From Kiritimatiellia bacterium (lineage in GTDB: Bacteria > Verrucomicrobiota > Kiritimatiellia > RFP12 > UBA1067), in contig JAFXIL010000035.1 in the NCBI GenBank assembly GCA_017563185.1, forward strand, positions 1 to 32,791: a stretch of 32,791 bases of DNA, written 5' to 3'. Below the pieces are notes generated by a model. The model was not told where the DNA came from. It saw only the letters and a list, made by a program, of their open reading frames with translations, and made no database searches. A program made the translations under genes and the position numbers. Of the stretch, positions 1,732-5,353 are shown one piece after another. Numbering within the stretch: position 1 is the stretch's first letter; every line of letters starts with the position of its first letter.

Positions 1732-1771
1732 TAGTCACTTGCCACTAATCACGAATCACTAACCACTCACT
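1723..1771. repeat. Period-7 tandem array filling an intergenic gap
   Basis: Seven consecutive degenerate heptamers (ACTAACC, ACTAGTC, ACTTGCC, ACTAATC, ACGAATC, ACTAACC, ACTCACT) cover the whole gap between two minus-strand genes. The array supplies the stop codon of the upstream gene (1767-1769) and overlaps the start of the downstream one. Confidence 0.8.
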
Positions 1772-4592
1772 TCACGATCATCATGAAGCCGCAGGGGCGG
1801 AGGACGAGGGATCCGTCACGGACCATGAGCGTTACGTGACCAGGGAGCCCCGTCCGGTCAAGCGCGAAGTTCGCCTTCGTCACGCCTTCGGGCAGGTTAG
1901 TGAGAAGTTTCCGCGCGCCGCCGCCCTCGCGCCCGCGCACCTTCACCGTCACGCGACCGCTCTCCGGCGGCGTGAAGCCGCCGAACGTCGCCGCCGCCAC
2001 GTCCGCGCCGAGACGCGACACGTCAAAATCAAGTATCGCACCCGCCTCGCACGCGACGGAGAAGCCCGATGAAAGCGTCTGCGACGTCTCGAACTTGAGC
2101 GTCGCGCCGGACTTCACCGAAAGCGTTCCCGAGCCCGTATGCGCACCGTCCTTCAGAAGCAACGTCGCCGAATCCTTCACGTTCAATGCGCCTTGGAAAT
2201 AGTCGTTGTCCGTCGAGTTGAACACCACCGTGCCGATTCCATCCACGTTCAGAACGCCCTTCGCATACGAGCCGATTCCGCCGTTACACGTCACAGTACG
2301 CGCAATCGTCGGATCATCGTAGTCCGTCGTGCCAAGCGTAAGCGTAGCGTTGTCGAAAATGAACAACGACTGATTGTTGCTACTGAAGGGATTTGGCCCC
2401 ACCGCGTAGTCGGCGTACGGATCGACACGTACCGCACCTTCGACCGCATAGTATGGGCTGCAGTTCGCGCCAAGTCTGCGGTTATTCAAGAACGAGAAGC
2501 CACCCGCGCCAACGATGTATTCCGCCCCTCCCGAAACGGCGTTAAGCCTGAACCTGGGATTGTTTACCTCGCCTATCGTCCCTGCATCGACGATCTTCCC
2601 GACACGTAATTTTCCAGACGAACTTCCAGCATAAATACCACTCAGACTATGGATATACGACGGAAACTGCGTATCGACCTTGAACTCGTCCATAACGATC
2701 GTGCCGTTGTTCCGCATGAACGCGGGATTGTATGCGGCATGGACGTGTACACCCATCTTCACGACCTGTCCGCTCTCCACAACGGCCCGCCCCGCATAGA
2801 CGGCGCGCGGCACGGCGACGCTTCCGTCGGACGAGACGGGCAGCATATCGACGACAAACGGCGCGTCGTTGCCCGCCGCGAACTCGTCCGCGTCGTACTT
2901 CACGAACGACACGTTGTCTATCTGCGTTGCGTAGGTGTTGTTGTATCCGGAAAGAGTCGAGAACGAAATGACGCACTCGCCCGCCTCCGGGATGAAGACA
3001 AGCCCGTTGAACTGCGACACCTCGTAGTATGTGGCCCCGTTTCCGCCGGTGGAGAGTGGGGTGAATTCCGCATAGCCGCACACGTCCGTCGTCGCTCCGC
3101 CGTCCTTGACCTGAAGGACGTTCACGGACGTGGGGATTCCGCCTTTGTTCCAACCCCAGTGGACAAAGGACAGGTGGTAGTATCCGGCCTCGGGAACGTC
3201 GAAGCTCTGCTGGGCGGAAAGCCCGGAATTGCGGAAGTACAGCGCATACACGCCCAGGGCGTGAGGCGTCTGGCCATCGGCGTTGAAGCCGACCCCCGGC
3301 ACGGCAAGCCCAAAGTTGTCATTGCGGCTTCCAGTCCATCCTGGATTGGAGTAGTCGGACGCCGTGCTTTTTATGTAATTGCCCCCCGTTCCGCCGCCCG
3401 CGTCGAACGAGCCGTTCTGGATGAGATTCTGGGAGCCACAGCGGTTGACGACCACGTTGTCGATGATATTTGCGGTTGTAACCGCCGTGTTGCCGGGTAT
3501 GGTGAACTGGAGGGCGTACGTTCCCGCTTCCGTGATTTCGGCGTAGCAGGTACAGGCGAGCGCCTTGCCCCAGCGCGCGTCTGCATGGTCGATTGCGCCG
3601 ATCACGTTTGTCGTCGCGCCATGGGCGAGGCGCACTTCGGTGGAAAGATGCTCACGTGTGTCAACCCATCCAAGATACGCGAACGACACGCGGTAGAGCC
3701 CCGGCTCGTCGAAGGTTATCTCCTGCTGCGCAAGCGAAGTGTCCGTCGCCGCCGTATTGCGGACGGCAAGAGCATACTTGCCGGGATTCCAGTAGGTGTG
3801 GTTGAAGAATCCGCTCATGTTGTTGTACCCGCAAAGGCAAATCCAGTTGTTGGCGTTCGGGACGGCGCCGCCGGTCCAGTAGGGGTTGGAATATCCGCTT
3901 CCGCCGATGCGCGTGTAGTTGCTGCCGGAGATAGAGCCTTCCTCGAAGCCAGGGTTCTTCACGAAGTTCACGCCCCCGACGCGCATGAACTTGATCTCGT
4001 CGAAGGTGTTACCGCCGTCGCTGCCGGTCTTCGTCTGCGAGAACTTGAGCGTGTATGAACCGGTCTCGGTGATGTTCGTCACGAAGTCGAACTGGTACAC
4101 CATTCCGTTGGAGATGCTTGGCGAGAGGGTCCCAAGCGTCACGGTGTCCGAACCGTGGATCAACTGGACTGTCGTGGCATGCGCCCCAACATTGCCTTGC
4201 CACGCCCAGTACTTGAGCGAAAGGCGGTAGCATCCTGTCTCTGTCACATTGAACATCTGCTGCGCCGTGGCCGTCTGACGAAGGAACATGGCATACGTGC
4301 CGATGTCGTAACCGTAGATGCCACCAAGGAACGCGGAATTGCTGACACACAGTCCAGCCGTTCCGGTGAACGTCCACGGCGAGGCGTTGAAACCCTGTCC
4401 GTCGGAATAGTATGCATACGTTCCGTTCGCGCGGGAACTGATACGCGGCATGTACGTGCCTTGGTCCTCGAACGCGCCGTTGACGATCAGGTTCGCTCCG
4501 GCGAACGACGAAAGCGCTAATGCGGCGCAGACGGCGGCCACCACAAGCGCCCGCATGGCCTTTTCAGACCTTCCGGAAAACCTCTTCGACAT
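1767..4592 (-). CDS. Large secreted modular surface protein with three NGxFE-type modules and autotransporter-like repeats
   Basis: The product is 941 residues. A signal peptide (residues about 12-33, ending SSFAGA) is followed by three related modules that begin NLIVNGAFED (34), NFVKNPGFEE (209) and NLIQNGSFDA (389). Each is about 175 residues and carries a Y/F-x-L-S-F/Y strand and an IDNV-like end, resembling DUF642 or carbohydrate-binding jelly rolls. Residues about 770-860 hold short beta repeats (SGTLSVKSGATLKFE) like autotransporter-associated beta-strand repeats, but no membrane barrel follows. The protein ends CGFMMIVK. Role is inferred as surface attachment or glycan binding. A good Shine-Dalgarno (AAGGAG) lies 7 nt before the ATG. 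Its promoter contains a 13-G tract, so expression may be phase-variable. The last gene in the window encodes a further copy of the same module. Confidence 0.75.
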   Translation of the reverse strand: MSKRFSGRSEKAMRALVVAAVCAALALSSFAGANLIVNGAFEDQGTYMPRISSRANGTYAYYSDGQGFNASPWTFTGTAGLCVSNSAFLGGIYGYDIGTYAMFLRQTATAQQMFNVTETGCYRLSLKYWAWQGNVGAHATTVQLIHGSDTVTLGTLSPSISNGMVYQFDFVTNITETGSYTLKFSQTKTGSDGGNTFDEIKFMRVGGVNFVKNPGFEEGSISGSNYTRIGGSGYSNPYWTGGAVPNANNWICLCGYNNMSGFFNHTYWNPGKYALAVRNTAATDTSLAQQEITFDEPGLYRVSFAYLGWVDTREHLSTEVRLAHGATTNVIGAIDHADARWGKALACTCYAEITEAGTYALQFTIPGNTAVTTANIIDNVVVNRCGSQNLIQNGSFDAGGGTGGNYIKSTASDYSNPGWTGSRNDNFGLAVPGVGFNADGQTPHALGVYALYFRNSGLSAQQSFDVPEAGYYHLSFVHWGWNKGGIPTSVNVLQVKDGGATTDVCGYAEFTPLSTGGNGATYYEVSQFNGLVFIPEAGECVISFSTLSGYNNTYATQIDNVSFVKYDADEFAAGNDAPFVVDMLPVSSDGSVAVPRAVYAGRAVVESGQVVKMGVHVHAAYNPAFMRNNGTIVMDEFKVDTQFPSYIHSLSGIYAGSSSGKLRVGKIVDAGTIGEVNNPRFRLNAVSGGAEYIVGAGGFSFLNNRRLGANCSPYYAVEGAVRVDPYADYAVGPNPFSSNNQSLFIFDNATLTLGTTDYDDPTIARTVTCNGGIGSYAKGVLNVDGIGTVVFNSTDNDYFQGALNVKDSATLLLKDGAHTGSGTLSVKSGATLKFETSQTLSSGFSVACEAGAILDFDVSRLGADVAAATFGGFTPPESGRVTVKVRGREGGGARKLLTNLPEGVTKANFALDRTGLPGHVTLMVRDGSLVLRPCGFMMIVK

Positions 4593-4670
4593 GATCTTTC
4601 TCCTTTTTTGACAGAATAATCACACCAAGAACTGGCTCGCACACAGGAAGCCTAGCCCATTGTTGTTAAG

Positions 4671-4701
4671 AGTATATCCCCCCCCCCCCCTTGTTAGTCA
4701 A
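4671..4701 (-). promoter_or_regulatory. Promoter with 13-G tract between -35 and -10 (likely phase-variable)
   Basis: On the minus strand TTGACT (4701-4696) is followed by AACAA, thirteen G (4690-4678), an A, and TATACT (4676-4671). The boxes match sigma-70 consensus 5/6 each and the spacer is 19 nt. Loss of one or two G would give the preferred 18 or 17 nt. It points at the 941-residue secreted-protein gene, with a leader of about 70 nt. Confidence 0.7.
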
Positions 4702-4831
4702 GGATAACTTTCAGATTTTTGGGCGGCCTTCCCGCGCACCGCCCCGACCTCGACGAAGTAGTAGGCGTTGGTGTTCACATCGGAAGTGTGCGGCGAAAGA
4801 ACAATGCCGGGAGGGCCAGCCCCCTGGCCGC

Positions 4832-5353
4832 TCAGGTTCGTACAGCCATCTCGGCGGCGACGCATGGAGGGACGAGGTCGGCGATGGATTCGCCGGATAC
4901 GAGGCGGCGGCGGATCTCGGTTGAGCTCTCCCTTGTGCGAGGATATTGCACGAACGTGCAGAGCGTTCGCAAGGTCTCGTAGTCCCTCCAAAGCGACAGC
5001 TTGGGCACGTTGTCCTCGCCGATTATGTAGAAGAGCTCTGCGCCGGGGAAACGCGATGCGGCGGCGCGCACGGTGTCGATCGCGTACGACGGCCCTTCGG
5101 CGCGGCGCAGCTCCACGTCCCACGCCTCGAACTTTGGGTTCATCTCCGCCACGCGCCGGACGAGCTCCCAGCGCAGGTCATCCGAAAGGCCGCCCGGCAA
5201 TTCGGCGCCGCTTGCGCCCACCTTGAACGGGTTCACCTTCGCCGGGATGAACAGAACCCTGTCGAGGCGCAGATCGGCGATCGCCCTTTCGGCTATTCCA
5301 ACATGCCCGGAATGAACCGGGTTGAAGCTGCCGCCGAAGAGACCGATCCGCAC
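4832..5353 (-). CDS. nadD: Nicotinate-nucleotide adenylyltransferase
   Basis: NadD transfers AMP from ATP to nicotinate mononucleotide to give deamido-NAD in cytoplasmic NAD synthesis. The 173-residue product opens with IGLFGGSFNPVHSGH, the nucleotidyltransferase GGSFNPxHxGH signature, and near the C-terminus has SSTEIRRRL, the ISSTxxR loop that contacts ATP. FYIIGEDNV is the usual core strand. It is slightly shorter than many NadD (about 190-215) because the region before SSTEIRRR is short (FVQYPRTRE). The start is GTG at 5353. It lies 10 bp downstream of nadC, which makes an earlier NAD precursor, so the two form an operon. A 6-bp GC hairpin (4814-4829) follows the stop without a U tract. 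Confidence 0.93.
   Translation of the reverse strand: MRIGLFGGSFNPVHSGHVGIAERAIADLRLDRVLFIPAKVNPFKVGASGAELPGGLSDDLRWELVRRVAEMNPKFEAWDVELRRAEGPSYAIDTVRAAASRFPGAELFYIIGEDNVPKLSLWRDYETLRTLCTFVQYPRTRESSTEIRRRLVSGESIADLVPPCVAAEMAVRT

Follow-up and report, generated by a model that had tools for sequence, protein, structure and literature searches.

A probable phase-variable poly-G promoter, one of a multi-locus set for secreted proteins, in a gut Kiritimatiellae genome

The window analysed here, i.e. the whole stretch of 32,791 nucleotides, represents contig C178 of a 3.2-Mb genome distributed over 206 contigs, and carries a promoter in the intergenic space between a nadD-type gene and the open reading frame (ORF) of a 941-residue secreted protein, both encoded by the minus strand (Table 1). 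Read on that strand, the promoter consists of TTGACT (4701-4696), AACAA, 13 consecutive G (4690-4678), a single A and TATACT (4676-4671), the plus strand of 4671-4701 being AGTATA T C13 TTGTT AGTCAA. The spacer between the -35 and -10 elements is thus 5 + 13 + 1 = 19 nt long (4677-4695), and the promoter lies 78 nt upstream of the ATG of the secreted protein. The preliminary description of this DNA, which had reported TTGACT, a 19-nt spacer with 13 G and TATACT in front of a large secreted modular protein, is exact by direct reading of the sequence as far as the promoter is concerned, and the product was found to have a signal peptide and three repeats resembling carbohydrate-binding modules (CBMs) within its 941 residues.

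Table 1 Features of the poly-G promoter locus, together with interrupted G tracts found at related promoters
Feature	Location	Strand	Basis or remark
-35 element TTGACT	4696..4701	-	Sequence; identical hexamer in C60, C138, C159 and the G011 syntenic locus
Poly-G tract, 13 G, within the 19-nt spacer	4678..4690	-	Sequence; homologous promoters have G9, G10 or G5TG4
-10 element TATACT	4671..4676	-	Sequence and alignment
Predicted 5' leader	4593..4664	-	Start site probably near 4664; similar leader in C60 and C138
GGAG ribosome-binding site	4600-4603	-	Sequence
Secreted protein, 941 aa	1767..4592	-	ORF; signal peptide, three repeats, C-terminal beta-rich region, ends ...CGFMMIVK
Second secreted ORF, 490 aa	259..1731	-	35 nt downstream of the first; C-terminus GGLFLLLR, similar to the first
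nadD-type nucleotidyltransferase	4832..5353	-	Upstream neighbour, outside the switch; Pfam PF01467
Interrupted tract G5AG4	L142:2016-2042 (G000:C180, this genome)		17-nt spacer, before a secreted-protein gene
Interrupted tract G6TG6	L209 (G014:C77)		17-nt spacer, before a secreted-protein gene
Interrupted tract G5TG4	L099 (G011:C32)		17-nt spacer, before a secreted-protein gene

The tract is the only G/C run of at least 7 in the whole window, and no longer G tract was found in the 3.2-Mb assembly; none of 100 shuffles of the window had as many matches to a run of nine G, which indicates a low chance probability. According to the alignment, the -10 element is preceded by TGA in the sister promoters and by GGA in the window copy, i.e. 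the TG of an extended -10 has been lost; since the window copy lost the T of this TGA, the G next to it has become fused into the tract, the latter being longer than in the sister promoters even apart from the fused G. A generic sigma-70 scan with spacers of 16-18 did not call the window promoter, because the assembled allele has a 19-nt spacer. Other kinds of switch or control were considered at this site and rejected: an invertible promoter, as inverted repeats of at least 12 were not found within 4400-4950; a translational (frameshift) SSR switch of the Amuc_1413 type, as the tract is intergenic and 85 nt upstream of the ATG; and RNA structure in the leader, the fold of which was not significant (z = -1.35).

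The three repeats of the 941-residue protein (residues ~33-207, 208-387 and 388-567), each of about 175 residues and starting with N-L-I-x-N-G-x-F, resemble the beta-sandwich of a CBM. The protein had no family match in Pfam and NCBIfam, and its full-length structure model was unusable (pLDDT 43), whereas a single repeat gave a usable model of a beta-sandwich (pTM 0.76), the Foldseek matches of which comprised many CBMs (CBM4, CBM16, CBM22 and CBM61) as well as other jelly-roll domains. Judging from this modelled fold, it is reasonable to suppose that the protein binds glycans; it is predicted to be secreted and presumed to reside at the surface. The second secreted ORF is probably co-transcribed with it, and the block of the two genes is conserved in G010, G012 and G037. 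Compared with its counterpart in G011 (L099), the gene at 1767-4592 is a mosaic, with ~100% identity at ~3000-3150 and 4500-4650 and 46-80% elsewhere in the gene, a pattern that suggests gene conversion between repeats or alleles. It should also be mentioned that large secreted proteins have in common a short C-terminal pattern—approximately G, five hydrophobic residues, K/R and stop—as in CGFMMIVK, GGISIILR, GLAILIR and HGFIVIIR (window 1767-4592 and 259-1731; L073, L075, L077, L079, L080, L082 and L083), which occurs in 19 of 145 ORFs of at least 400 aa versus 1 of 204 smaller ORFs and is a candidate sorting signal.

The arrangement is not confined to the window. All 38 tracts of at least eight G in the genome were read, and ten of them have a TTGA-type -35 on one side and a -10 on the other. 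Their spacers measure 14 nt in C76, 16 nt in C138, C134, C160 and C174, 17 nt in C159, 18 nt in C60, C44 and C37, and 19 nt in the window, the value for C37 assuming TAAAAT as the -10, whereas the scripted scan settled on a more distant TATAAT (30 nt). At all ten loci, a large ORF of 538-1616 aa, the N-terminus of which resembles a signal peptide, begins 25-89 nt past the -10, compared with a background of 39% (binomial p = 8e-5), which rises to 55% for ORFs of at least 480 aa and makes the ten out of ten less extreme (~0.002), the background rate being derived from 274 ORFs in ~391 kb with a home-made signal-peptide heuristic. Four more G tracts, with an unclear promoter match, are likewise located upstream of secreted proteins, and the pattern TTGAC-N-G8-N-TATA matches the genome four times, versus none for the backward pattern. 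Domain searches of the other tract targets returned one GH123 domain and, below threshold, PATR in two other targets. The target at G000:C160 (L078:2055-3668) is the one carrying the glycoside hydrolase 123 catalytic domain, and the switch may thus extend to a glycan-degrading enzyme. This genome and most of its relatives possess MutS1, and a general loss of mismatch repair was accordingly rejected as the driving force.

Concerning the relatives, the pattern TTGAC-N0-15-G8-N0-15-TATA gave ~75 matches in 162 genomes of the order versus 3 for the backward control, the strict pattern being present in only 33 of the 162, and outside the order, 345 genomes from the phylum showed a small excess (23 matches versus 10 in the control). 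A tighter motif, run over 84,980 named species genomes, retrieved nine stretches, four of which are from Kiritimatiellae or Kiritimatiellaeota and three further ones from MAGs within the family of the window (RUG14492, i.e. G026, and CAMIVJ, i.e. G011, among them); the stated sources of the matches are ruminant or other gut. A single match to the poly-G promoter pattern was also seen in a contig of a viral collection (L150, IMGVR_UViG_2563367151_000002:4827-4849). A signal-peptide ORF lies downstream at 54 of the 76 sites in relatives (p = 1.6e-8 versus the own-genome background). These observations have to be weighed against the explanation that the tract is an assembly artefact or a neutral homopolymer, i.e. 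a mis-assembled run or chance intergenic DNA, as might be suspected from the error-prone nature of homopolymers and from a draft genome of 206 contigs. The same tract and flanks, however, are found at many loci in many independent assemblies, the backward-pattern controls are near zero, and the tract is contig-internal, its flanks being syntenic in another species; this explanation is therefore the least credible of those considered, with hardly any weight left to it.

When own and related sites are taken together, spacers of 16-18 nt are the most frequent (45 of 86 sites), and 55% of the 74 order-wide spacers on the strict list fall at 15-19 nt, whereas a null model of random placement gives 17%. 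The longer the tract, the shorter the remainder of the spacer tends to be (r = -0.32, permutation p = 0.0009), and such a partial compensation of the tract by the remaining spacer is as expected if selection acts on the total distance. Apart from a few far longer ones, the spacers are 14 to 20 nt long in total; among the exceptions is a comparable promoter in G026 (L156, G026:C9:15853-15897), which precedes a secreted-protein gene and has 30 consecutive G and a spacer of 35 nt, either because the tract has expanded to an extreme degree or because it was wrongly assembled. The clustering at 16-18 nt is not predicted by a model in which tract length works via an upstream-bound activator—as in the Bordetella fim-type C-stretch or the nadA-type distal spacing—and not via the -35/-10 distance. 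This model can rely on the Bordetella precedent (PMC1891110) and on an AT-rich stretch upstream of the -35 that the cassette copies share in part, but the fim-type arrangement lacks a usable -35, whereas the near-consensus TTGACT is present here, and we consider the model very unlikely.

The promoter of C134 is closely matched in two further species of the genus, with 98-100% identity over 60 nt upstream, the tract and spacer being G10 and 16 nt in C134, G11 and 17 nt in G013, and (A)G10 and 16 nt in G011; of 17 listed pairs of similar promoters, the majority differ in tract length. The window promoter, in turn, has its syntenic counterpart in the sister species G011, where the end of nadD, the leader and the signal-peptide DNA are ~100% identical and the spacer, AACA-GGGGGTGGGG-TGA-TATGCT, is 17 nt long with the interrupted tract G5TG4. 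The comparison of tract length in related genomes, suggested in the preliminary description as a check, has thus revealed variation, i.e. G10/G11/G10 at the C134 locus and G13 versus G5TG4 at the window locus. Across the order, the interrupted pattern has 16 matches versus 1 in the control, and the T- or A-interrupted tracts at 17 nt look like possible stabilised, locked-ON versions. The retention of the 17-nt spacer by G5TG4, G5AG4 and G6TG6 could also be read differently, namely that the G-rich spacer is static and belongs to the structure common to a class of promoters, as DNA that is stiff and hard to melt or as the site of a regulator, with a length fixed on ecological time scales; the promoters can indeed be recognised as a family, and their flanks are conserved. 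A static spacer is, however, difficult to reconcile with tract lengths that differ at homologous promoters behind 98-100% identical upstream flanks, with total spacers of 14 to 20 nt and occasionally far more (the G30 tract with its 35-nt spacer), and with the established strong tendency of uninterrupted G9-13 runs to slip; it appears improbable.

Based on the above results, the window promoter is probably a slippage-driven phase-variable promoter of the porA/tp0126 type and one of a multi-locus set for secreted proteins. As in that type, a homopolymer of at least eight lies between the -35 and -10, a spacer of ~17 nt is within reach (19 nt at G13, 17 nt at G11), the product is predicted to be secreted and tract length differs between close relatives. 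Phase variation, as proposed in the preliminary description, is supported comparatively by the recurrence at ten own loci and dozens in relatives, by the 16-18-nt clustering and by the length differences between near-identical flanks, while the multi-locus set, the loss of the extended -10 TG and the interrupted tract at 17 nt in the sister species go beyond that description. Mechanistically, slippage of DNA polymerase in the tract would add or remove G's and thereby change the -35/-10 distance; a spacer of ~17 nt would be strongly recognised by RNA polymerase, and longer or shorter ones would give weak or no transcription, as is established for Neisseria and Treponema. The output would be the secreted carbohydrate-binding-like protein, probably together with the ORF downstream of it. 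With its 19 nt and without the extended -10 TG, the assembled allele is predicted to be weak or OFF, and 11 G would restore 17 nt, with the caveat that homopolymer lengths in a draft of 206 contigs may be consensus errors. With about ten such promoters in this genome, nearly all for large secreted proteins, each cell would display a random subset of the surface repertoire.

As far as the spread of these promoters is concerned, the window, C60 and C138 have the promoter, leader and signal peptide (MSKRF/MLKRF...) in common, with differing mature proteins, and C134 and its counterparts in G013 and G011 likewise have a common promoter and signal peptide, diverging directly past the cleavage region. 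The reverse is found in G010, G012, G014 and G037, where mature proteins 75-86% identical to that of the window have different promoters and signal peptides; no G tract was found upstream of these orthologues, and phase variation therefore does not accompany the protein across these genomes. From these comparisons, phase-variable promoters seem to be moved between genes by recombination near the signal peptide. It is also conceivable, if somewhat short of probable, that gut Kiritimatiellae possess a genome-wide system, in which copying or recombination joins a cassette of slippage-prone G-tract promoter and signal peptide to various large secreted proteins that bind glycans, resulting in a combinatorial random surface display with interrupted tracts locked ON.

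The comparative evidence lends good support to a new example of a familiar type of switch, in a lineage of uncultured gut bacteria for which it is new; the example stands out by being multi-locus and by occurring outside the usual pathogens. The library searched yielded no paper linking Kiritimatiellae with phase variation. Random on/off switches of surface proteins are known mainly from pathogens. Whether multi-locus phase variation is truly restricted to pathogens or reflects a database bias was highlighted in a recent review as a major open question (PMC11868660), and about ten poly-G promoters in a gut/rumen commensal lineage, together with their traces throughout a largely uncultured order, make that question testable with existing metagenomic reads. 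If true, the switch would explain the diversification of glycan-binding surface proteins in these bacteria, and gene content would be no guide to expression in these genomes.

Among the known systems, the C-stretch of Bordetella fim2, fim3 and fimX, the length of which alters the transcript level (PMC1891110), is also a homopolymer in promoters of surface-structure genes, but it is tied to an activator site without a clear -35 partner, whereas a clear -35 is present here. Amuc_1413 of Akkermansia muciniphila, for which G9 to G10 slippage was observed experimentally (PMC13055324; PMC3048395), comes from the same phylum and has a poly-G tract (G9), located, however, in the coding sequence as a frameshift switch and not in the promoter. 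The homopolymer promoter spacers of Neisseria meningitidis porA (poly-G) and Neisseria fetA (poly-C) (PMC5320596; for porA also PMC7864442) are closer, since they lie between the -35 and -10 of a surface-protein gene and their length sets transcription; the present case differs in the unrelated phylum, in the predicted character of the length-expression relation and in the ~ten loci of this genome, three transcriptional loci being listed for the gonococcus NCCP11945 (PMC5320596). Treponema pallidum also has poly-G in promoters at several loci per genome, tp0126 and tpr (PMC7864442), and tp0126 is controlled by a poly-G spacer with an optimum of 17 nt (PMC7864442); there, however, the targets are outer-membrane porin-like proteins of a pathogen, whereas here they are large secreted CBM-like or beta-helix-like proteins of an uncultured gut commensal.
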